Of a stretch of 64,000 nucleotides of DNA, positions 3,041 to 13,465 are shown piece by piece. Both the position numbers and the translations under genes were made by a program. The notes beneath the pieces were generated by a model, which saw only the letters and a list, made by a program, of their open reading frames with translations, searched no databases and was not told the DNA's origin. This DNA is from Pseudoalteromonas sp. EB27 (GTDB taxonomy: Bacteria; Pseudomonadota; Gammaproteobacteria; Enterobacterales; Alteromonadaceae). The first letter of the stretch is position 1. Every line of letters begins with the position of its first letter. The stretch covers positions 1 through 64,000 of the forward strand of contig NZ_MTQD01000014.1 of the NCBI RefSeq assembly GCF_001974875.1. The letters are read 5' to 3'.

Positions 3041-3649
3041 ATGTTTTTAGATTTAACTGTAAATAAAGAGCTTAATGTTTATTCGTATTTAGTTGGCGGG
3101 ATTAGTCCTCGCCCAATTGCATGGATAAGTACATTAAGTAGCGACGGTGTGGCTAATATTGCCCCTTACTCATTTTTTACAGTAGCGAGTTGTAACCCAC
3201 CAGTATTGAGTGTGACGCAAGTAAATCCGAGCGATAAAGCAATCAAAGATACATTAATTAACATATTAGCGACTAAAGAATGTGTAATTAACATTGTGAG
3301 CCATCAGCAGGTTGAAAAAATGAATCAAAGCTGTGCTAATTACCCTAGTGATGTGAGTGAATTTGATGCTGCAAATATATCTAAAATTGATAGCCAAATG
3401 GTCGCAGTGCCGAGTGTTGCTGATTCAAAAGTACGCTATGAGTGTAAGCTACGTGAAGTGATTACTATTTCAAGCGAGCCAGGTGGCGGGCAAATGATGC
3501 TACTAGATATAGTGGGTATTTGTGTTGACGATGAAGTGTTTGTCGATGGTTATATTGACCCAACACTTTTAGATGCGGTAGGTCGAATGGGTGGGGATTA
3601 CTATGCAACCACTAAAGACAAGTTTTTGCTTAAAAGGCCGCAGTTGTGA
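3041..3649 (+). CDS. Flavin reductase-like FMN-binding protein (DIM6/NTAB family)
   Basis: A 202-residue protein with the split-barrel flavin reductase signature: GGISPRPIAWISTLSSDGVA near residue 20, then NIAPYSFFTVASCNPPVLSV. Family members bind FMN and reduce flavins with NAD(P)H, or serve as the reductase part of monooxygenases. The specific substrate is not evident. The start follows AAAAAGGAAAAAC. It is divergent from the photolyase gene; a role in supplying reduced flavin to it is possible but unsupported. 43 bases separate it from the peptidase gene. Confidence 0.85.
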   Translation: MFLDLTVNKELNVYSYLVGGISPRPIAWISTLSSDGVANIAPYSFFTVASCNPPVLSVTQVNPSDKAIKDTLINILATKECVINIVSHQQVEKMNQSCANYPSDVSEFDAANISKIDSQMVAVPSVADSKVRYECKLREVITISSEPGGGQMMLLDIVGICVDDEVFVDGYIDPTLLDAVGRMGGDYYATTKDKFLLKRPQL

Positions 3650-3692
3650 AATAATAGTTTACTTAGGAACATAATAATAAAAGGATTTACGA

Positions 3693-5624
3693 ATGCTTAA
3701 GTTCATTTTAACTTTGTTAATTGCTTTGCAAAGTTTTGGCTCTATTGCCACACAAGATAAAAAATTACCTATAGAAGTTTTTGCCGGCTTAAAAGATTTT
3801 AGCCAAGTTAAGCTATCCCCCAATGGTAAGAACCTCGCTTTTGTAAGAAACCATGAAGGGACTTTAATCTTAATCGTTAAAAACTTGGAGACGGGGGTTA
3901 CTACACCAATTATAAACTCAAATAACCATACAGTATTTTTTGATTGGTATAACTGGGCAAATGATGACGTATTATTGCTTGGTGCTCGTTATATAAAGTA
4001 TCAATTTGGCGGAGTTAAATATACATCAACGCTTATGTATGCGTATAACTTTAAAAATGATAAAGGCCTTAAATTAGCTTTTAAAGCCAACACAGTACGA
4101 GATGAGATCCAGCCACAATATTCAGACCGAATTGTTAGTTTTTTACCTGAAAAAGAAAATAAAATTTTAGTCGAGGGGGATTTTAAAATAGCAAATACCC
4201 CAGCAGTTTATGAGTTAGATTTAACTACATTACGTAAGACTCAAATACAAAGGCCACGCAGTAATGTAGTTACTTGGCTTGCCGACAGGCAAGGTAAAGT
4301 TCGTATTGCAAAAAAAATGGACGATACGCAATTTACTTACGATTATTTTGATGAGAATAAACAGTCGTGGGAAACATTATTTGATTATGAAGTTTTTAGT
4401 AAGCAAAGCATTTCTATATTAGGGTTTGATAAAGACTCTAATTTTTTATATATCACTGCGTTACATGAAGGGCGCGATGCATTATTTAAACTCAATTTAA
4501 CGACTAAAGCTCGCGAGCTAATTTACAGTAATAGTAAATATGATTTTGATGGGGCTATTTTTTATTCACAACAAACTGGCGAAGTTGCAGGCTTTACTGA
4601 TTCCCATTTAGATGATGGTATTAAATATTGGGATAAAGACTTAGATAAATTACATCGATCTTTACGCGTATCACTCCCTAAAGATGAATATAAATTAAGT
4701 ATTGTAAGTACCAGTAAAGATCAGCAAAAATATATACTTTATATCAGTTCAGACAAAACCTCTGGTAGTTATCTATTTGGGGATAGAGTTAAAAAGCAGG
4801 TGAGTGCAATCGCTGATGTTTACCCGCAAATAGATTCCTCTGTATACAGAGGAAAAAAACGCATTAGCTATAAGGCAAGAGATGGCTTAAAAATAGAAGG
4901 CTATTTAACTCTACCTGTAGAATATAAAGATGGTGATAAGTTACCAACAATTATATTTCCACATGGCGGCCCTATGGCAAGAGACTATGCCAACTTTGAT
5001 TACTGGACAGCTTTATTAGCCTATAACGGATATGCTGTTTTACAGCCTAACTTCCGTGGTTCAAGCGGCTATGGGTACGACTTTTTAATGCAGTCAATTC
5101 AAGGTTTCGGTTTAGCTATGCAAGATGACTTGCAAGACGGTGCAAACTGGTTAATTGACCAAGGGATAGCGCAAGCAGATAGCATTTGTATTGGTGGTGC
5201 TAGCTATGGTGGCTATGCAGCGTTAATGGCTGTAATTAAGCATCCAGAAACGTTTAAATGTGCAGCTAGTTTTGCTGGGGTAAGTGATTTAGAGTATTTA
5301 GTGAGTAAAGCACGACACTTTACAAACAAAAATATTGTTAGAAAGCAGTTTGGAACTGATGATGATTTGCTAGAAGCTAATTCTCCGGTGAATTTTGCTA
5401 AAAAAATAACAAGACCAATACTACTTGTGCACGGAACTGATGACAGTGTTGTACCTGTTTATCATAGTAGAGAAATGCAGGATGAACTTGATGATGAAGG
5501 AAAAGATGTTACTTATATTGAGCTTGAAGATGGTGACCATTACTTATCTTATCAAGAACACAGAGTTAAAACTCTTCAGGCATTTTTAGACTTTTTTGAT
5601 AAACATTTGAAAAATAATAAATAG
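3693..5624 (+). CDS. Secreted S9-family prolyl oligopeptidase-like serine peptidase
   Basis: 643 residues with an N-terminal signal sequence (about 1-20, cleavage near SIATQ), a beta-propeller-like middle, and a C-terminal alpha/beta-hydrolase domain from about 410. The catalytic triad is visible: Ser504 in GGASYGGYA, Asp583 in HGTDDSVVP and His616 in DGDHYLSY. FPHGGP and NFRGSSGYG are the oxyanion and entry motifs of S9 peptidases. It would release oligopeptides or dipeptides in the periplasm or outside the cell, in line with a protein-scavenging marine heterotroph. AAAGGA precedes ATG 3693. The terminator at 5645-5671 closes the unit. Confidence 0.9.
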   Translation: MLKFILTLLIALQSFGSIATQDKKLPIEVFAGLKDFSQVKLSPNGKNLAFVRNHEGTLILIVKNLETGVTTPIINSNNHTVFFDWYNWANDDVLLLGARYIKYQFGGVKYTSTLMYAYNFKNDKGLKLAFKANTVRDEIQPQYSDRIVSFLPEKENKILVEGDFKIANTPAVYELDLTTLRKTQIQRPRSNVVTWLADRQGKVRIAKKMDDTQFTYDYFDENKQSWETLFDYEVFSKQSISILGFDKDSNFLYITALHEGRDALFKLNLTTKARELIYSNSKYDFDGAIFYSQQTGEVAGFTDSHLDDGIKYWDKDLDKLHRSLRVSLPKDEYKLSIVSTSKDQQKYILYISSDKTSGSYLFGDRVKKQVSAIADVYPQIDSSVYRGKKRISYKARDGLKIEGYLTLPVEYKDGDKLPTIIFPHGGPMARDYANFDYWTALLAYNGYAVLQPNFRGSSGYGYDFLMQSIQGFGLAMQDDLQDGANWLIDQGIAQADSICIGGASYGGYAALMAVIKHPETFKCAASFAGVSDLEYLVSKARHFTNKNIVRKQFGTDDDLLEANSPVNFAKKITRPILLVHGTDDSVVPVYHSREMQDELDDEGKDVTYIELEDGDHYLSYQEHRVKTLQAFLDFFDKHLKNNK

Positions 5625-5644
5625 CCAGACTCCAGTTAAATAGC

Positions 5645-5671
5645 AAAAAGACAACTTAGGTTGTCTTTTTT
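5645..5671 (+). terminator. Intrinsic terminator after the S9 peptidase gene
   Basis: AAAAAGACAAC and GTTGTCTTTTT form an 11-bp perfect stem with a 4-base loop (ttag), ending in six T residues, 20 bases after the stop. Confidence 0.9.
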
Positions 5672-5759
5672 GATCATAACTTTCCTTAGTTTGTGCACAT
5701 TGCTTGCACTTTTACTTGTTAACTTTGTTTTATTAAACGTTAAAGTAAAGGTTCAAGCA

Positions 5760-7361
5760 TTGAAAACACTTCTTAAAATAAAAGCCTCTAATGTAACTAA
5801 GCTATTTGCGTTAAGTGCGCTTTGTATCGCTTTAAGCGCATGTAATAGCGATTCAACAAGTACTACAACAGACGGCGATACAGCCAGTAATAGTGCTCCA
5901 ACGGTTGACGCCGGTATTGACCAAACTGTTAATGCGGGTGATACCGTTTATTTAAGTTCAACAGTTGAAGATGATGGTGAAGTATCGGTTAGTTGGTCAC
6001 AAACATCAGGCACTACCGTTAGCTTATCTTCAAGTACAGCAACGTCTACAGAGTTTGTTGCCCCAGAGGTATTAACCGATGAAGCACTTGTATTTGAAAT
6101 CAGTGCAGATGACGGAACAAACGATGTAGTTGTAGATACAATTATAATTAATGTTGTTGCTTCATCAGGCTCTGATAGCGGCGCAGTTGATAATAGTGCA
6201 AAACTTACCAGCTGGTTGATCAACAACGATACAACCTCTACTTACATACAAAATAATGGTGCAGTGGTTGAAGATGTTCAATTAGTTGAAGTTGTTAGCG
6301 TTACACAAGATGATGCTGACGTTGAATACATGTATGTGCAAACAACTGACATTCCTAAATATGACGTAACGCTTACACAAGACCAAGTAGACGCGTTAAA
6401 TAACCGTCCGCGTGCAGCTACTGATTTTTATAACGGTGTAACCTCAGCAGCAGCAGGTCAAACTATTTCGTTTGGTGAAGATATTGGCTATAACAGCAGC
6501 ACTGAAAACTGTGATGACACAGGCGGGGCAGGTTATTGGCCTCCAGGACCAGGTTGCCCAACAGAACAAGCGGTTGAGGCGTATTTTCCGATAACACCTA
6601 CCGATTTATCTGACACTGAAACTTGTGAAACAGGTTTAGGCACCGTTGGCTTAATGGTTAATGGCACCAGTATATTTAACTGGGGCGATGGTATGAGTTA
6701 CGGTAATAATATCTGGTATACATTAGCGCCCATTGCTGAGCAATACGATGTTGATGTGTGTGGCGGGCATGCAGCTAACGGTGAATATCACCACCATTTT
6801 TACACTAGTTGCTTAGCTGATTTACTTGAAGATGATGGCGATGCGCATTCACCTATTTATGGGTTTGCAGCTGATGGTTATCCACTTTACGGCCCTTATG
6901 AAAGTAACGGTCAACTTGCATTAAGCGGCTGGGAAATGCGTGATTACGGCGCATCTACAAACGAAGGTGGTTGCGGTACTGAGGGCGAGCGAAGCTGTAC
7001 TTTAGTTGATCAATACGATGTTAGCCAAGGTATACAAACAAGTGATGCAGGCCCTGCTATTGGCGCAGAAGTAACGACGCTCTCCGGTAATACATTAAAT
7101 GCCGACGATGGGTTTTACTTTGAAGATTATTACTACGCACAAAAAACAGTAACCGGTGCTCAATTAGATGAGCATAACGGCCACGATACTAATGATGGCA
7201 AGGGTTATCATTACCATATAACACTAACGCTAGGCAGCGATGGTAAATTACAGCCTTCTTTCCCTTATCAAATTGGCCCGCGTTTTAAAGGTCAATTAGC
7301 TGATAATTCAATTGGTCACTGTGATACGGGCGAAACAATGGGTCCACCACCGGGTGTGTAA
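5760..7361 (+). CDS. YHYH-domain lipoprotein with N-terminal PKD/Ig-like domain
   Basis: I place the start at TTG 5760, which gives 533 residues. The frame is open further upstream to 5661, but that region is the terminator of the previous gene. From 5760 the product has a good lipoprotein signal (FALSALCIALSAC, then NSDST), and AAAGG sits 8 bases upstream. An Ig/PKD-like segment follows (SNSAPTVDAGIDQTVNAGDT). The YHYH domain fills the C-terminal two thirds: NGEYHHHFYTSC, GFAADGYPLYGPYE and KGYHYHITLT. YHYH proteins are secreted, and their biochemical role is not established. The histidine clusters suggest metal binding. The gene leads an apparent operon with the next three genes (9-bp gap to the next). 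Confidence 0.8.
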   Translation: MKTLLKIKASNVTKLFALSALCIALSACNSDSTSTTTDGDTASNSAPTVDAGIDQTVNAGDTVYLSSTVEDDGEVSVSWSQTSGTTVSLSSSTATSTEFVAPEVLTDEALVFEISADDGTNDVVVDTIIINVVASSGSDSGAVDNSAKLTSWLINNDTTSTYIQNNGAVVEDVQLVEVVSVTQDDADVEYMYVQTTDIPKYDVTLTQDQVDALNNRPRAATDFYNGVTSAAAGQTISFGEDIGYNSSTENCDDTGGAGYWPPGPGCPTEQAVEAYFPITPTDLSDTETCETGLGTVGLMVNGTSIFNWGDGMSYGNNIWYTLAPIAEQYDVDVCGGHAANGEYHHHFYTSCLADLLEDDGDAHSPIYGFAADGYPLYGPYESNGQLALSGWEMRDYGASTNEGGCGTEGERSCTLVDQYDVSQGIQTSDAGPAIGAEVTTLSGNTLNADDGFYFEDYYYAQKTVTGAQLDEHNGHDTNDGKGYHYHITLTLGSDGKLQPSFPYQIGPRFKGQLADNSIGHCDTGETMGPPPGV

Positions 7362-7370
7362 GGAGTAACT

Positions 7371-7901
7371 ATGCGTTATTTTAAATACGCATTGATCCTA
7401 ACTTCTGCTGCACTATTGAGCTTTAAGCTCTTTGCGCAGCAGGAAATGATGGATCATAGCCATATGCCTATAGCAGTGCCAAGTGATACGACAATTCCGG
7501 CATTAAGCCTTAAGTTATTAAAAGATAGTATGTCGGGTTATAACTTAATTTTAGATACTCAGCGCTATGACTTGTCTGTGCCGCCTGAGGGCGCAATGAA
7601 CATGCAGCAAATGATGAGCGTTACTACAAACAATGACACGGGTTTTTTACAAGGTCATGCTCATTTATATATAAATGGGGTTAAAATACAGCGAATTTAC
7701 GGACATGCATTGCATTTACCTGCTAACTTATTTAAAAGTGGTATAAATACCGTATCGGTTACTTTAAATAATCATGGTCATATGTATTGGACCGCCCAAG
7801 GCAAAAAAATAGTTGCTACATTGTATGTTAACGATCAAACCAAAGAGTTTATAACATACCGATTTGAAAGCTTTCCTAGCAAGGTTGAAAATACGCATTA
7901 A
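7371..7901 (+). CDS. Secreted His/Met-rich protein of unknown function
   Basis: 176 residues with a clear signal peptide (hydrophobic 6-21, cleavage near KLFAQQ). The mature protein starts with EMMDHSHMP and contains GHAHLYING, IYGHALHLP and LNNHGHMYW, plus the methionine run AMNMQQMM. Clusters of His and Met in an exported protein are typical of copper or silver handling, but I do not recognise a named family. A strong Shine-Dalgarno (AAGGAG) lies 6 bases before ATG. Its stop overlaps the start of the sensor kinase gene (TAATG), so the two are translationally coupled. It may be the periplasmic partner or ligand carrier of that kinase. Confidence 0.75.
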   Translation: MRYFKYALILTSAALLSFKLFAQQEMMDHSHMPIAVPSDTTIPALSLKLLKDSMSGYNLILDTQRYDLSVPPEGAMNMQQMMSVTTNNDTGFLQGHAHLYINGVKIQRIYGHALHLPANLFKSGINTVSVTLNNHGHMYWTAQGKKIVATLYVNDQTKEFITYRFESFPSKVENTH

Positions 7902-9346
7902 TGAAAATTCATAATAAACTTTTTTTAATACTATTTAGTTTTACTTTTAGTGTTATTGCAGGGCTGGTGGTACTTATACAGTGGAGTATAGGGCAAGGCG
8001 TAATTGATTTTGTTAATGCAAAAGAGGTGAAAGCGCTTGAACCACTTGTTGTGCAACTAGCAAAGCAGTACGAACAGACACCCTCATGGGAACGTGTTGT
8101 AGGCAGTGGCGAAAATTTTAGAAAACGTGTTGAATCGCAGTTAGAAAGTAGCCAATTTTTACCTAGACCCCAAGAAGGGCCTGGTCCGCGTGGGCGAGTG
8201 ATGCGACGACCGCCGCCAGATCATATGCGTTTTGGAGAGGATCGTCACCCACCGCCAGAAAATATTGCTCACTACGCTTTGCTTGACGAAAATAAACAGC
8301 GAGTAGTGGGAAAATACCTCAGCGATTTAAAATATATAACAACCCCAATTATAGTTAACGATAAAATAGTGGGTTACTTAGCTGTTTCTAAAAGAGATAG
8401 CTTGGTTGATGGCTACGAACTTGATTTTTTACAGCAGCAAACTAACTACTTATGGTTTATTGCTTTAGCTGCGGTACTGCTAACATTACTGGTTACCTTT
8501 TTATTATCTCGCCACTTAGTTAGTCCAGTAAAGCAAATTGCTAACGGTATGCATCGCTTAACGCAAGGTAATTACGAGACCAAACTTACGCTTGAGCGAA
8601 AAGATGAATTAGGCCAATTAAGCGAAGATTTTAATACCCTTGCATTTACACTCGCCAAAGACGAGCAAGTGCGTAAACGTTGGCTTGCTAATATTTCCCA
8701 TGAGCTTAGGACGCCAATGAGCATTTTACTCGGTGAGCTTGAAGCTATGCTACTTGGCATACGAGAACCGAACGCAAAAAATATAAGTTCGGCTAACGAT
8801 GAAGCCTTGCATTTAAAACGCTTAATAGACGACTTGCATATGCTCAATAGCGCAGAGTTAGGAGGTATGCACTACACTATGCAACCTACTGACATGGCGT
8901 TATTATTAAATACTATTGAGCAGAAATATCAGGTTGTGCTTGAACAACATTGTATAAAACTTTATCTATTAAATAGCGCTAAACACATAACTGTACAAGC
9001 AGACAAAACACGCCTTTTGCAGCTACTCGATAATATTTTAATGAACGCAGTACACTATGCACAATGTACAACTATTTCATTAACGGCTAGCAATATAAGT
9101 ATTAAAGGGCAAACTTATTTAGAGCTTATAATCGAAGATAATGGCGTAGGTGTAGAGCAGTCGCATTTATCGCATTTATTTGAGTATTTATACCGAGTAG
9201 ATAGTTCGCGTAATCGCCAAGAGGGCGGTTCTGGCTTAGGTTTATCTATTTGCCAGCATATAGTTAAAGGTCATAAAGGTGAGATCGCTGCAGAAAAAGC
9301 CAGTTTAGGCGGCCTAGCTATTATTATTAGATTGCCAACTATTTAG
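7901..9346 (+). CDS. Sensor histidine kinase with proline-rich periplasmic loop
   Basis: 481 residues: TM1 at about 7-29, a periplasmic region 30-182, TM2 at 183-203, HAMP about 203-255, and HisKA with the phospho-acceptor His267 in ANISHELRTPMS. The ATPase domain has DNILMNAVHYA (N box), EDNGVGV (G1) and GGSGLGLSIC (G2). The layout is that of BaeS/CpxA-type kinases. The periplasmic region is unusual: residues 88-121 are rich in Pro, Arg and His (PRPQEGPGPRGRV, RRPPPDHMR, RHPPPEN). The gene overlaps the upstream His/Met-rich gene by one base and precedes its regulator, so the sensed signal probably concerns the two secreted proteins. Confidence 0.9.
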   Translation: MKIHNKLFLILFSFTFSVIAGLVVLIQWSIGQGVIDFVNAKEVKALEPLVVQLAKQYEQTPSWERVVGSGENFRKRVESQLESSQFLPRPQEGPGPRGRVMRRPPPDHMRFGEDRHPPPENIAHYALLDENKQRVVGKYLSDLKYITTPIIVNDKIVGYLAVSKRDSLVDGYELDFLQQQTNYLWFIALAAVLLTLLVTFLLSRHLVSPVKQIANGMHRLTQGNYETKLTLERKDELGQLSEDFNTLAFTLAKDEQVRKRWLANISHELRTPMSILLGELEAMLLGIREPNAKNISSANDEALHLKRLIDDLHMLNSAELGGMHYTMQPTDMALLLNTIEQKYQVVLEQHCIKLYLLNSAKHITVQADKTRLLQLLDNILMNAVHYAQCTTISLTASNISIKGQTYLELIIEDNGVGVEQSHLSHLFEYLYRVDSSRNRQEGGSGLGLSICQHIVKGHKGEIAAEKASLGGLAIIIRLPTI

Positions 9347-9385
9347 TTTATAAAAATAAAGTTGAGGTTACTTACAGAGATGCCT

Positions 9386-10060
9386 ATGAGTGAACAAATA
9401 CTGATTGTGGAAGATGAAGTAAAGCTAGCTAACTTAATGAGTGACTTTTTAAGTAGCCATCACTTTATTACTCATCAAATACATCACGGGAATGATGTAT
9501 TACCTTGGCTTGAAATTAACAGGCCGAGTGTAATTTTGCTAGACATAATGTTACCAGGTCAAAGTGGTATTGAACTGTGTAAAGCAATCAGGCGCTTTTC
9601 AAACGTGCCTATTATTATGGTATCGGCAAAGGTAGAAGAAATAGATAGATTACTTGGGCTTGAATTAGGTGCAGATGATTATATTTGTAAGCCGTTTAGT
9701 TATGCTGAGCTGGTGGCACGCGTAAAAGCTATTTTAAGGCGATTAAATAACGCAAGTGATGTTACAGAGTCAACAATGAAGCTTGACGAGAGCAGCTACA
9801 GCGTAAAATACAAATCAAGCAGTATAGAGCTGACAAACTTTGAATTTCAGCTATTTAAACCTTTGTTTAACAACCCAAATCGTATTTATTCGCGTGATAG
9901 TTTGATGGATACTATGTATGCCGATCAGCGTATTGTGAGCCACCGTACTATTGATAGCCATATTAAAAAGTTGCGTAAAAAACTAGATGAAGTGACACAA
10001 ACTGAAAGTGTTATCCAGTCTGTTTATGGGGTTGGCTACCGATTTGTGCATCCACAGTAA
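9386..10060 (+). CDS. OmpR/PhoB-family response regulator
   Basis: The receiver domain holds the acidic pair ED near residues 9-10, phospho-acceptor Asp53 in LLDIMLPGQSG and the conserved KPF lysine. The C-terminal winged-helix DNA-binding domain ends with the usual SVYGVGYRF motif. I choose ATG 9386 (224 residues, MSEQILIVEDE) because AGAG lies 6 bases upstream; ATG 9380 and an upstream TTG 9362 are also in frame. It pairs with the kinase 40 bases upstream. The likely targets are its own operon and the EF-hand gene downstream (inference). Confidence 0.9.
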   Translation: MSEQILIVEDEVKLANLMSDFLSSHHFITHQIHHGNDVLPWLEINRPSVILLDIMLPGQSGIELCKAIRRFSNVPIIMVSAKVEEIDRLLGLELGADDYICKPFSYAELVARVKAILRRLNNASDVTESTMKLDESSYSVKYKSSSIELTNFEFQLFKPLFNNPNRIYSRDSLMDTMYADQRIVSHRTIDSHIKKLRKKLDEVTQTESVIQSVYGVGYRFVHPQ

Positions 10061-10074
10061 AATAGAATGAGCTA

Positions 10075-10107
10075 TGACGATGAGTTACTCATCATCGTCA
10101 GCATTTT
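10075..10107 (+). terminator. Possible terminator at the convergent gene ends
   Basis: TGACGATG (10075-10082) and CATCGTCA (10093-10100) can pair over a 10-base loop, followed by GCATTTTT. It lies just after the response regulator stop and overlaps the last codons of the opposing RIO kinase gene. The stem is short, so the call is tentative. Confidence 0.4.
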
Positions 10108-10942
10108 TAATTCGCTCTAAACGGTCAAACTCTTCGTATTCTGCTGCCTGAATTTCATCAAGAATAGAATCTACATCAGCAAGTTCGTCGCTGTCTTCAA
10201 ATTCACCTGTAAGCGTTGAATTAGGCGTTAAGTTGGCCTCTTCAAATAGTGCCCACATTTCTTTAGCGTATTGAGTTTTTAGTATGCTTGGCGCAAATTC
10301 ACCATAGTAGCGGCGGATGTTATTTACATCACGTGCAAACATAGCTTGCGCACTGTTATTTGCTGAAGCATTAACTGCCTGCGGTAAATCTATAATTACA
10401 GGGCCGTTATTATCTACAAGTACATTAAATTCGGATAAATCACCGTGTATTATACCTGCACAAAGCATAAGCTTAATGTAATGTATCATGAGTTTATACT
10501 GCTCAATCGCTTGCTCTTCACTAAAAACGACATGCCCAAGTTGAGGGGCTACGTTACCGTCCTCGTCCGACACAAGTTCCATAAGCAGCACGCCATCAAT
10601 ACAAAAGTAAGTGTCAGGAACACGTACACCTGCGCCAGCTAAACGAGATAACGCATCAACTTCGGCATTTTGCCAAATTTCTTCTTCTAATTGACGGCCA
10701 TAGCTAGAGCGTTTACCCATAGCACGCGCTTGGCGTCCACCACGTACTTTTCGGCCTTCTTGGTATTGTGCCGCTTTTTTAAAGCTACGCTTAACCGCGT
10801 CTTTATACACTTTCGCACAGCGAATGTGCTCACCACAGCGGACAATAAATACATCGGCTTCTTTACCGCTCATTAGTCGGCTTATAACTTCGTCAATAAG
10901 GCCATCATCAACAAGGGGTTGTAGGCGTTTAGGTATTTTCAC
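10085..10942 (-). CDS. RIO-family serine/threonine protein kinase
   Basis: 285 residues with the RIO kinase core: nucleotide loop SGKEADVFIV near residue 25, catalytic loop IIHGDLSEFNVLV and metal-binding IIDLPQAV. The C-terminus is a long acidic tail (EEFDRLERIKNADDDE). RIO kinases in proteobacteria are soluble and of uncertain target; archaeal and eukaryotic relatives act in ribosome maturation. It sits in antisense orientation between the two-component genes and the EF-hand gene, and splits that group. It shows no obvious tie to it. Confidence 0.85.
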   Translation of the reverse strand: MKIPKRLQPLVDDGLIDEVISRLMSGKEADVFIVRCGEHIRCAKVYKDAVKRSFKKAAQYQEGRKVRGGRQARAMGKRSSYGRQLEEEIWQNAEVDALSRLAGAGVRVPDTYFCIDGVLLMELVSDEDGNVAPQLGHVVFSEEQAIEQYKLMIHYIKLMLCAGIIHGDLSEFNVLVDNNGPVIIDLPQAVNASANNSAQAMFARDVNNIRRYYGEFAPSILKTQYAKEMWALFEEANLTPNSTLTGEFEDSDELADVDSILDEIQAAEYEEFDRLERIKNADDDE

Positions 10943-11253
10943 AGATTGCCTGCTAAGTAGGGTTGGTTATTAATCATTATTTATGAAAGTGCTCTGTATT
11001 TGTTTGTTTAATTGGCTCAAGCAGTATATCAGCTTTGAGAATTAAGGGCAGTAACACTACTGCCTGAGAGTAATTAATCGTATTATTTTATTAGCTTATA
11101 TATTGATTGCAAAGCAATCAACCAGAACTTTTTAAATAAGTATTTAGATTACTATTTTTTATTAAAATAATTTATTACTTCCTCATTATTTGCACATTGT
11201 TTGCGTTTTTAAAGCGTAAGCTTAGTTTAATTCTTAAATACGAGGTTATTACT
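10943..11253. other. Intergenic region with two small perfect inverted repeats
   Basis: This 311-bp AT-rich stretch between the divergent RIO kinase and EF-hand genes has no coding frame. It contains GGCAGTA-acac-TACTGCC (11047-11064) and TTGATTGC-aaa-GCAATCAA (11103-11121). Neither is followed by a T run, so they are not terminators. They may be operator sites or leader hairpins for either gene. Confidence 0.6.
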
Positions 11254-11529
11254 ATGAAGCATTTTTCAACTCTTGCCACTGTGGCAATATTATCTATTGC
11301 TTTTTCAGCTAATGTAGCTGCTCGAGGCGGTGACAATCCTCCTGAAAAACCTGACTTTTCAGCTATTGATACTGATGGTGATGGCGTAATCAGCTTTGAA
11401 GAGTTTAGTGCAAAAAAACCGCCGCACGGCGATGCACAAACAATTTTTGATTCTATAGATGCTGATGGTAATGGTGAAATTAGTGAGCAAGAACTTAGCG
11501 AACATAAACCACCTCGTCGTGAACGTTGA
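11254..11529 (+). CDS. Exported EF-hand calcium-binding protein
   Basis: 91 residues from ATG 11254, which follows GAGG by 8 bases. An upstream extension of the frame to 11197 lacks a ribosome site and would bury the signal peptide. Signal sequence about 1-22 (cleavage near NVAA). Two canonical EF-hand loops are present: DTDGDGVISFEEF and DADGNGEISEQEL, with Asp/Asn/Glu at every coordinating position. Linkers are proline-rich (NPPEKPDF, KKPPHGD) and the end is basic (HKPPRRER). It is probably a periplasmic Ca2+ binder or sensor. The next gene is only 12 bases downstream. Confidence 0.88.
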   Translation: MKHFSTLATVAILSIAFSANVAARGGDNPPEKPDFSAIDTDGDGVISFEEFSAKKPPHGDAQTIFDSIDADGNGEISEQELSEHKPPRRER

Positions 11530-11541
11530 AAGGATAATAAA

Positions 11542-11997
11542 ATGATTAATAGTATTAGTGGTAGTTCTGCGAGTTTCATATCGCAACAAAGCAGCCAAGC
11601 TTCAAAATTAACAACAGAGCAAAGCGATTTTGTTAAAGAAACGCTTGCAGAGTTTAATGCAGAAAACTTAAGCGCAGAAGACGCGCAAAGTATTCAAGCG
11701 GCATTTAAAGAACAAGGTATTGAGCCAACAAAAGAGCTTGCTGATTTAATGAGCGAACTTGAGTTTGATGCTAAAAGTATAGGTGATGCAGGACGAGTGG
11801 AAGGTCAAAGACCGCCGCCACCGCCACAAAACTCATTAGAATCAGTAGATACAGACGAAGTAGTAAGCTACTTAGATGAGCTATTAACTGAGTATTCAAG
11901 CCAGTTGTCAGATGAAGATAAAGAATCAATCCTTGCATCAGTGCAAGAGAAGTTTGGTTTAAGTGAAGGCGATTCACTGCTAAATGTAACTGCTTAG
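11542..11997 (+). CDS. Unrecognised Ser/Gln/Glu-rich protein with a polyproline stretch
   Basis: 151 residues with no signal peptide and no membrane segment. The N-terminus is Ser/Gln-rich (SISGSSASFISQQSSQASK), followed by an acidic helical region (SDFVKETLAEFNAENLS), a polyproline linker QRPPPPPQNS near residues 93-102, and a second acidic helical part ending in SLLNVTA. AAAGGA precedes ATG by 7 bases. It is cotranscribed with the EF-hand gene and closed by a strong terminator. I recognise no family. The two acidic helical segments are vaguely like degenerate EF-hand pairs (for example DTDEVVSYLDELL), but the loop residues are not intact. Confidence 0.75.
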   Translation: MINSISGSSASFISQQSSQASKLTTEQSDFVKETLAEFNAENLSAEDAQSIQAAFKEQGIEPTKELADLMSELEFDAKSIGDAGRVEGQRPPPPPQNSLESVDTDEVVSYLDELLTEYSSQLSDEDKESILASVQEKFGLSEGDSLLNVTA

Positions 11998-12046
11998 GTG
12001 TTATAACTTAGAGTAAAGCTGACTGTTACTCGAAAGTCTTAAGTCC

Positions 12047-12079
12047 AAAGCCCAACGGTTAATTCTGTTGGGCTTTTTT
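12047..12079 (+). terminator. Intrinsic terminator after the EF-hand operon
   Basis: AAAGCCCAAC (12047-12056) pairs with GTTGGGCTTT (12067-12076), with six T residues at 12074-12079. Confidence 0.9.
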
Positions 12080-12085
12080 AATGGC

Positions 12086-13465
12086 TTAATTTAAACGCGT
12101 TTCTATTTTGCTGGTGCCATCTTCTTCGGTAAATTTAAATACAAAATCTTTTTTACCGTCTTGGTTTATATCTACCAAAAGAATATCTTTATTATTCTTA
12201 GGCAGCGTTAACTTTAATTTTTTACGCTTATCATTTAGCAGTGAGTCTTGCTCACCATAATAAATATACAGTGTTTTTTTACTGTATTTGTATACTGCAT
12301 CAATATAGCTGTCGCCGTTAATATCACCTAAATAGAGTGCTGGTTCGGAGTCATCGCCATTCATTCCCACTTCCATTTCTAAATCAAGTTCGATACTCGA
12401 TTTATTGGCAAATGAGCCATCAGGTTGCTGCTTATAAAGATTCATTTCTACATCTACATCAGTACTGCCGCCGCCTAATGCCATAGACGCAATAGTACCT
12501 AAGCCAATATCCAAATCCATTTTTTGTAAATCAATTAAACCATCATTATTAAAATCTGTTTTGAGTAATAACTCGCTAGGGCCTTGTGTTTCAAATAAGG
12601 GAATGGGCGTATTACTAAACCCTTTAGCACTTCCTAGGTACAAAGTGTGCGCTATTTTTATATCTAACGAATCCATACCTTGCGTAGGTTTAAACTGCCT
12701 AGTTGTAAAATCTAAAAATCCGTCGTTATTAATATCAATAATTTGCTTTATTTTGCGAGTCTCGCCATTACTTAGCTCGCCTAACTCGATGTTAAAATTA
12801 ATTGAGGTGAGCTTTTGCTCAAAGCCCTCTGAATTAGCAAGTAGTACATCTGCTCCAAAGTCATTTGAAAAAACCAGGTCGTTTAATCCGTCGTGGTTAA
12901 AATCAATAACGACAGGTTTATTGTTAATATTAACTTCTAGAGAAAGCCCTTTTCCTGAAAAGTGGCCTTCATACTTAGGCGTTTGCTTAAATTGGTTAGG
13001 CTTAAAGCTGCCATCTTTATTTTGAATGTATAAAGTACTGCTTGCTAACCCAGGAATGAAAATATCGCTTAGACCGTCATTGTTAGCATCGAAAACAAAG
13101 TCTACTTTTTCAAATTTATCTATTTTTAATTGATTTAGAACCGACTCATAATTAAACAACAGTGTAGGTTTACCAGCTTGGGCTTTGTATACGCCATCAC
13201 TTGTTAGTACGAGTGCTTGTTTATCGGTAATGTTAGCAAGTGTAGCCACATCAAACCCGATGGCATTTTTTGGTAAAGCAAGTTCACTACTTAGTGATGT
13301 GAGTAAATTGATGGCTTCTAATTGTTTTGATTCTTTATTATATGCAAATAAAATCTCTGAATCGGTTGATACTAATTCATCCGTTGTTTTTATTGCCATT
13401 GTTTGAGCTATAGCGCTAATGGGAGTAATTAAAGTGATGAGTGAATAGCAAAGTGGTTTTATCAT
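12086..13465 (-). CDS. Secreted FG-GAP/VCBS-repeat protein
   Basis: 459 residues with a signal peptide (about 1-21, ending AIAQT). At least six Ca2+-binding FG-GAP-type repeats are visible: DANNDGLSDIF, DFNHDGLNDLV, DINNDGFLDFT, DFNNDGLIDLQ, DINGDSYIDAV and DINQDGKKDFV. Such proteins form beta-propellers and are exported. Binding partners vary and no enzyme domain is seen. AAAGGAATTTGC precedes the ATG. It faces the EF-hand operon tail to tail. Both encode calcium-binding exported proteins, which may be coincidental. Confidence 0.85.
   Translation of the reverse strand: MIKPLCYSLITLITPISAIAQTMAIKTTDELVSTDSEILFAYNKESKQLEAINLLTSLSSELALPKNAIGFDVATLANITDKQALVLTSDGVYKAQAGKPTLLFNYESVLNQLKIDKFEKVDFVFDANNDGLSDIFIPGLASSTLYIQNKDGSFKPNQFKQTPKYEGHFSGKGLSLEVNINNKPVVIDFNHDGLNDLVFSNDFGADVLLANSEGFEQKLTSINFNIELGELSNGETRKIKQIIDINNDGFLDFTTRQFKPTQGMDSLDIKIAHTLYLGSAKGFSNTPIPLFETQGPSELLLKTDFNNDGLIDLQKMDLDIGLGTIASMALGGGSTDVDVEMNLYKQQPDGSFANKSSIELDLEMEVGMNGDDSEPALYLGDINGDSYIDAVYKYSKKTLYIYYGEQDSLLNDKRKKLKLTLPKNNKDILLVDINQDGKKDFVFKFTEEDGTSKIETRLN

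Follow-up and report, generated by a model that had tools for sequence, protein, structure and literature searches.

Within a 64,000-nucleotide stretch of Pseudoalteromonas sp. EB27 (contig NZ_MTQD01000014.1, positions 1 to 64,000; hereafter the window), six genes between positions 5760 and 11997 encode a YHYH-domain lipoprotein, an exported His-rich protein of 176 amino acids (hereafter M), a sensor histidine kinase, a response regulator, an exported EF-hand protein and its partner, P151. A preliminary description, made from the sequence alone, had read them as a possible metal-response system of the cell surface, with four tightly linked genes (gaps of 9, −1 and 39 bp) and the EF-hand pair 1.2 kb downstream. 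The open reading frame (ORF) lists and the sequence confirm all six genes with their coordinates and gaps. It is also evident that the 1.2-kb space contains a RIO-kinase gene on the opposite strand, which that description did not mention (Table 1). Upstream of each of the two operons stands a direct-repeat box of 15 bp, KTGCACATTGYTTGC. The locus is more than a chance arrangement, because its gene order is conserved in nine other loci and the box is common to both operons. We therefore regard it as a conserved, self-consistent candidate regulon, and infer the mechanism beyond it, that is, the identity of the metal, the contact between box and regulator, and the biochemistry.

Table 1. Features of the YHYH-M-kinase-regulator locus and the EF-hand pair (positions in the window)
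Feature	Position	Strand	Remarks
Box 1, TTTGTGCACATTGCTTGCAC, candidate regulator site	5690-5709	+	15-mer at 5693-5707; about 50 bp before the YHYH start
YHYH-domain lipoprotein	5760-7361	+	533 aa; TTG start; lipobox LSAC; PF14240
M protein (exported, His-rich)	7371-7901	+	176 aa; 9-bp gap after the YHYH gene
BaeS-like sensor histidine kinase (HAMP, HisKA, HATPase_c)	7901-9346	+	Overlap of 1 bp with the end of the M gene
BaeR-like OmpR-family response regulator	9386-10060	+	39-bp gap after the kinase; alternative ATG at 9380
RIO-kinase gene	10085-10942	opposite strand	PF01163; in the 1.2-kb space between the two operons
Box 2, ATTTGCACATTGTTTGCGTT, candidate regulator site	11188-11207	+	Exact 15-mer at 11190-11204; about 50 bp before the EF-hand start
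Exported two-EF-hand protein	11254-11529	+	PF13202; loops DTDGDGVISFEE and DADGNGEISEQE
P151 (EF-hand partner)	11542-11997	+	151 aa; by eye without a signal peptide; no family

The repeat TGCACATTGYTTGC was spotted by reading the sequences upstream of the YHYH and EF-hand genes. When up to two mismatches are allowed, the window contains exactly these two sites, a count that is weak evidence on its own, as 20 of 100 shuffled sequences also reach two. In the complete genome, the exact 15-mer is found only at the two operons, and allowing one mismatch adds four sites, compared with one for the reversed pattern. One of the four is located upstream of a further YHYH lipoprotein gene, at a distance of about 45 bp, and one about 50 bp before a CotH/lamin-tail lipoprotein gene followed by VTC and DUF4956 genes; the remaining two are inside unrelated genes. 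The CotH/lamin-tail operon is found at L243:1916-6122 (C36, near 177-181 kb), and the site also precedes CotH in three other genomes (L276, L277 and L283). Sharing of the same box supports the earlier proposal that the EF-hand pair is linked to the YHYH/kinase operon. A sigma-70 scan was uninformative (21 sites vs 16.9 in shuffles), and terminator-like sites (13 vs 5.7 in shuffles) were not used as evidence.

The order YHYH-M-kinase-regulator is kept in nine other Pseudoalteromonas loci, and EF-P151 follows downstream in eight of them, the ninth sequence (L033) stopping before EF. Both box sites are kept in all nine with at most two mismatches; box 2 has one mismatch before EF in L042, and in L033 it is present although the contig stops before EF itself. 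In three Pseudoalteromonas loci (L038, L039 and L040), the RIO-kinase gene is missing from this place and the regulator is directly followed by EF. Neither box site was found in the Colwellia locus L041. Across 108 genomes of the genus, we have identified 39 exact boxes in 29 genomes, compared with 2 for the reversed control pattern. Seventeen of the 39 precede YHYH (one of them in a remnant locus), 12 precede EF-P151, 4 precede a YHYH paralogue and 1 precedes the kinase; the other 5 comprise three upstream of an nrdA-like gene (so named by eye), one within a gene and one unassigned. These contexts were read for 29 sites in new loci and one more site, the others being placed by coordinates; two of the 29 loci gave no downstream ORF, and one of these two was placed before EF by coordinates. 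The nrdA-like boxes, about 340 bp upstream in G020, G048 and G049, represent either chance or another regulator's site. Outside the genus, 9 of 27 loci have an upstream repeat of 11-bp pitch, against a mean of 0.5 in shuffles, while a pitch of 12 gave 3 and other pitches gave 0 to 2; the half-site was chosen after viewing the same loci, so that this result is a lead only.

The box also tracks the kinase. Taking at least 59% identity as the definition of a kinase orthologue, with partial matches of 48-52% in G014 and G070 uncounted, we found one in 19 of the 108 genomes, 13 with YHYH-M and 6 without linked M. The exact box is present in 18 of these 19 genomes compared with 11 of the 89 genomes without the kinase, and 7 of those 11 have P. 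rubra-type (Pseudoalteromonas rubra) YHYH-M loci. The nineteenth kinase genome (G065) has the box with two mismatches both before the kinase and before EF. Among the six kinase genomes without linked M, the box is exact in five and has two mismatches in the sixth. In G035, G016 and G065, the gene order is S9 peptidase, kinase, regulator, RIO kinase, EF and P151, with no YHYH-M, and box-like sites (0-2 mismatches) precede the kinase and EF in all three loci. Comparison of the loci thus shows YHYH-M to be a cassette, either present or absent between box and kinase. A longer pattern with up to two mismatches recovers box sites in the other 18 kinase-bearing genomes. Among the 29 loci obtained with it, 22 have kinase, YHYH, EF-P151 or CotH downstream by direct comparison and three more are YHYH paralogues (L256, L262 and L272), giving 25 of 29, and four (L267, L270, L281 and L282) are unassigned; these loci represent the best sites only, many two-mismatch sites being background as judged by the control columns. 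A reading of the system as a single fixed unit does not hold: kinase, regulator and EF-P151 occur without YHYH-M (the three loci read and the six kinase genomes without linked M), YHYH-M occurs without the kinase in the P. rubra type, and P151 occurs without it in 24 genomes of the genus.

A profile search of genome contigs for M returned 422 pattern stretches, 406 of them relatives, and the best 80 of these by similarity to the query, which are not a random sample, were taken as the set of M loci. A YHYH gene directly precedes M on the same strand in 62 of these 80 loci, counted from −600 to +400 bp since M starts are often called too early; YHYH is divergent from M in two loci (L051 and L057) and none is adjacent in 16. 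A stricter adjacency filter retains 53 of 87 sources, that is, the 80 loci, six plasmid stretches and the window. Within the genus, M is found in 21 of the 108 genomes and a close YHYH (E < 1e-50) in 21, with both in 19. M is without a close YHYH in G007, a remnant, and in G064, where an M of alphaproteobacterial type is next to a different YHYH gene; close YHYH without M is found in G044 and G099. The co-occurrence of YHYH with the 176-residue family thus extends to 19 of the 21 M genomes of the genus and to the 62 adjacent loci. A kinase (>200 bits) and a regulator (>180 bits) are found near YHYH-M in 18 of the 80 loci, in two gene orders. YHYH-M is followed by kinase and regulator in Pseudoalteromonas and Microbulbifer, and preceded by them in Gilvimarinus, Thalassotalea, Catenovulum and Kangiella.

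Pairing of YHYH with a small protein is not confined to M. All five YHYH genes found in the genome of the window precede a small protein with an export-type N-terminus (judged by eye): M in the window, a 170-residue protein (C32), proteins of 174 and 106 residues (C13) and one of 98 residues (C5, near 121 kb). The 174-residue partner shows a weak EF-hand match, below the cut-off. A PEBP domain is part of the YHYH protein of C32, and YHYH genes are also neighbours of PEBP genes on Loktanella plasmids. At C32 (L240:3121-8109, near 35-40 kb), YHYH, a small exported protein, a BaeS-like kinase and a regulator follow one another in the gene order of the window. In a Colwellia metagenome-assembled genome (L041:4063-4311), a relative of P151 is directly upstream of YHYH-M.

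The YHYH lipoprotein matches PF14240 with 64.2 bits against a gathering score of 25 (E = 2e-17), and its N-terminal part shows a weak Ig-like match. Among 36 aligned members, D190, C192, H195, H202, H204, D328, H333, H342 and H344 are invariant, with numbers counted from residue 143 of the protein. The predicted model, with a mean local confidence (pLDDT) of 68 and no PDB fold match at E ≤ 0.001, was not interpreted, and no PDB relative was found by profile. A phage origin of the YHYH protein in the window was considered and rejected, as the PHROGs matches are weak and cover short stretches and the ten genes scanned at the locus include nothing phage-like.

Neither M nor P151 has anything above the cut-off in Pfam or NCBIfam, and M has no PDB relative either as a single sequence (best E 0.47) or as a profile. 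Single M members give mostly weak Pfam matches, most often to a beta-galactosidase beta domain, which was matched by 22 of 58 members with a best E of 1e-4. In an alignment of 58 members, D52, G56, N58, GHAH (95-98), N102, K105, R108, Y110, G124, L132, N133 and H137 are invariant, so that the invariant histidines are H96, H98 and H137; H29, H31, P43 and H115 are conserved in at least 90%. The earlier label "His/Met-rich" is loose, since histidines are conserved in M and methionines are not. The AlphaFold model of M is confident (pLDDT 91.2; predicted template modeling score, pTM, 0.79) and mainly beta behind a signal helix, and M is predicted to be an FN3/Ig-like beta sandwich. No Foldseek match to solved structures was found at E ≤ 0.001, and the comparison with VIA gave a best Z of 7.8 (root-mean-square deviation 2.4, 86 aligned residues), none at Z ≥ 8, with common FN3-like matches; the fold comparison is compatible with a family absent from the structure sets searched.

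Identity to M in the window is 94-98% in the first five named close relatives, in keeping with a Pseudoalteromonas host. According to record titles, the family reaches Gamma- and Alphaproteobacteria, metagenome-assembled genomes of Bryobacterales, Terriglobia and Patescibacteria type, one cyanobacterial and two Bacteroidetes-type metagenome-assembled genomes. In even genome draws M is a rare family, found in 9 of 369 genomes of the host's class, its own genome included, and in 20 of 385 genomes of the Alphaproteobacteria-type class, two of which (G476 and G477) were known beforehand. Short homologues of 132-134 residues, with GYLQ in place of GHAH, occur in two alphaproteobacterial-class genomes of about 1.4 Mb (L195 and L196). 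In Bryobacterales/Terriglobia metagenome-assembled genomes (L092, L098, L104, L108, L111 and L112), the M domain is located within proteins called at 389-418 residues, which are flanked by two YHYH genes; in L104, ADP-ribosylglycohydrolase, sulfatase and esterase-type genes come next.

Outside the YHYH pairing, M is found next to cobalt and copper proteins. The M gene of alphaproteobacterial plasmids comes after CbtA, in most cases with CbtB ahead and DUF1636 nearby. A cobalamin riboswitch precedes CbtB-CbtA-M in 8 of the 11 loci tested (L027, L031, L032, L162, L107, L199, L110 and the gammaproteobacterial L114); it was not found in L166 and L178, which are short stretches, or in L028, in which no CbtB was found. 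A search of the 80 loci with one query each showed CbtA/CbtB in L107 and L110 alone. In two of the 80 loci, M directly follows a PCu(A)C gene: L085 (PF04314, 122 bits) and, by comparison with it, L087. Four proteins (L116, L163, L171 and L172) are fusions in which M comes after a PCu(A)C domain that scores above the Pfam cut-off. Two more fusions are possible, L117 below the Pfam cut-off and L118 only with a home-made profile, and no Pfam match was obtained for L119, L120, L173, L115 and L176. The C-terminal part of the M proteins L161, L173 and L176 looks cupredoxin-like; Pfam is empty for L173, L176 and L193 (the same gene as L161). The M gene of L185 is next to one whose product has a galactose-oxidase-like E-set and a Kelch motif. 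The 20 M genomes of the alphaproteobacterial draw comprise 5 with M adjacent to CbtBA (one an M fragment), 3 with a PCu(A)C fusion, 1 with M after YHYH and 11 in other contexts, the last mostly judged within 1.5 to 5 kb. Pfam scans covering 39 proteins of the retrieved loci (34 being neither YHYH nor M), among them MatE, LeuA-like, TatD, sulfatase and nudix proteins, gave no recurrent cross-genus partner except PCu(A)C. These associations, PCu(A)C fusions on the one hand and riboswitch-controlled CbtBA operons on the other, support the earlier suggestion that the 176-residue family binds metal.

The EF-hand protein has two EF-hand loops, matching PF13202 in two stretches with 47.8 bits against a cut-off of 25.9 (E = 7e-13). 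Naming this protein and P151 after the XopAW effector was rejected, the matches being far below the cut-off. P151 is present in 43 of the 108 genomes of the genus, including all 19 with the kinase; of the kinase-less copies, nine are at 62-65% identity and the others at 40-47% or a fragment. The closest NCBIfam models of the kinase and the regulator are BaeS (NF012163, 338.4 bits of a cut-off of 500) and BaeR (NF007982, 298.8 of 380). The regulator combines a receiver with an OmpR-type DNA-binding domain in Pfam, and its segment TIDSHIKKLRKKL, which we take to be the recognition helix, is identical in 13 aligned Pseudoalteromonas orthologues, the window included. The periplasmic domain of the kinase contains a Pro-rich stretch and three histidines, the number ranging from 1 to 5 across 13 aligned Pseudoalteromonas orthologues.

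We favor, with moderate confidence, an envelope regulon that is controlled by a BaeSR-like system and consists of exported metal-binding proteins; a transition metal such as copper would be the likeliest signal, with copper binding by Escherichia coli BaeS through periplasmic histidines (PMC4780735) as a precedent. The kinase would sense a periplasmic signal, most likely such a metal, and the regulator would bind the direct repeat of 11-bp pitch, TTTGCAcattgTTTGCA; the site is conserved, and this regulator is its putative reader. The regulator would control the operon that encodes it as well as a small set of exported proteins: YHYH and M, the EF-hand/P151 pair, further operons of YHYH with a small partner, and the CotH/lamin-tail lipoprotein operon. 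YHYH and M may work as partners, either in the periplasm or on the outer surface. M would be a metal-binding beta sandwich with His ligands that captures metal or hands it over, and YHYH, which has conserved His, Asp and Cys of its own, could be the partner of M or an enzyme served by M. Neither of the outcomes that the preliminary description named as refuting was observed: YHYH and M are found together in other species, and the box is not restricted to unrelated genes, provided that it is this regulator's site, as we infer.

Several observations weigh against this BaeSR-like regulon of metal-binding proteins. The periplasmic histidines of the kinase are not conserved among the 13 orthologues, M loci in other contexts are common in the class draws, and the genomes of the genus are related, so that counts within it are not independent. 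M may lack specificity for a single metal, as CbtBA indicates cobalt and PCu(A)C copper. Moreover, seven P. rubra-type genomes (e.g., L246; in G007 as a remnant) keep the box and YHYH-M without a kinase orthologue, so that in this type the box is read by a different regulator or else does not belong to the one described here. The box could then be the site of a regulator encoded elsewhere, with the adjacent kinase-regulator operon as one of its targets. We consider this unlikely, since the box tracks the kinase orthologue even where YHYH-M is missing.

Two further observations against the favored reading are that the EF-hands and CotH suit calcium as well as copper, and that P151 occurs in 24 kinase-less genomes of the genus. 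A calcium-responsive surface system could be envisaged, in which the kinase detects Ca2+, the main output is the EF-hand protein with P151, CotH/lamin-tail and YHYH proteins remodel the surface or matrix, and YHYH-M is a later addition whose metal is unrelated to the signal. Such a system would account for the persistence of EF-P151 with kinase and regulator in the three loci that lack YHYH-M, for P151 in 19 of 19 kinase genomes, for the box at the CotH/lamin-tail operon and for the sub-threshold EF-hand match behind another YHYH gene of the same genome. The metal links found for M are nevertheless to copper and cobalt proteins, P151 also occurs without the kinase, and the closest named kinase family is BaeS, which together make calcium an improbable signal. 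The BaeS and BaeR matches could instead point to a general envelope-stress regulon like BaeSR of Escherichia coli, with misfolded or damaged envelope as the signal, with YHYH, M and the EF-hand protein as chaperone-like proteins or hydrolases and with metal in a structural role only; the prediction of YHYH as a metal-dependent hydrolase of phage tails (PMC7824862) would be in keeping with it. Both matches are below their cut-offs, however, no RND pump or Spy-like protein is found among the ten genes scanned around the locus (3041-13465), and the metal-protein context of M recurs, so that we hold general envelope stress to be slightly less probable still than calcium or a foreign regulator.

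If the regulon of metal-binding proteins is real, YHYH and M, which are widely distributed without an established function, would gain a common role in periplasmic metal handling, and a marine genus would gain a defined operator sequence with a compact regulon; the riboswitch-controlled and PCu(A)C-fused relatives of M indicate the first metals to try. It is also conceivable, with somewhat less than an even chance, that M founds a new class of periplasmic metal carriers, ranging from Proteobacteria to Acidobacteriota and Patescibacteria, with PCu(A)C (copper), CbtBA (cobalt) and YHYH lipoproteins as interchangeable partners, and that pairs of YHYH with a small partner are a general surface metal module, placed in Pseudoalteromonas under a dedicated metal-sensing BaeSR-like TTTGCA-n5-TTTGCA regulon. 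The literature on YHYH, on CotH/DUF4956/VTC and on EF-hand, calcium and two-component systems of Pseudoalteromonas contains, judged by titles and the openings of abstracts, nothing about this system, and M, being nameless, cannot be searched for.

The components of the locus can be compared with four known systems. The lipoprotein in the window is a member of the YHYH domain family above the Pfam cut-off. The sole functional prediction found for this family concerns a Zn-binding, metal-dependent hydrolase of phage tails (PMC7824862), whereas the YHYH protein studied here is a lipoprotein paired with M and belongs to an operon with a two-component system. In some Alpha- and Gammaproteobacteria, M is fused with or next to PCu(A)C chaperones (PF04314); it forms a domain distinct from them, has conserved histidines of its own, and the Pfam scan gave no PCu(A)C match for M in the window. 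M comes third in the operons of the CbtAB cobalt importer that are under cobalamin riboswitches, and a riboswitch was found in most of the loci tested, whereas no Rfam match to RF00174 above the gathering score occurs in the 64-kb window. Among NCBIfam models, the kinase and the regulator are nearest to BaeS and BaeR, known from E. coli and Salmonella, while remaining below both equivalog cut-offs. The candidate regulon here consists of exported YHYH, M, EF-hand and CotH proteins, and the periplasmic domain of the kinase differs by its Pro-rich stretch from that of E. coli BaeS, which clusters in copper and binds copper via four periplasmic histidines (PMC4780735).

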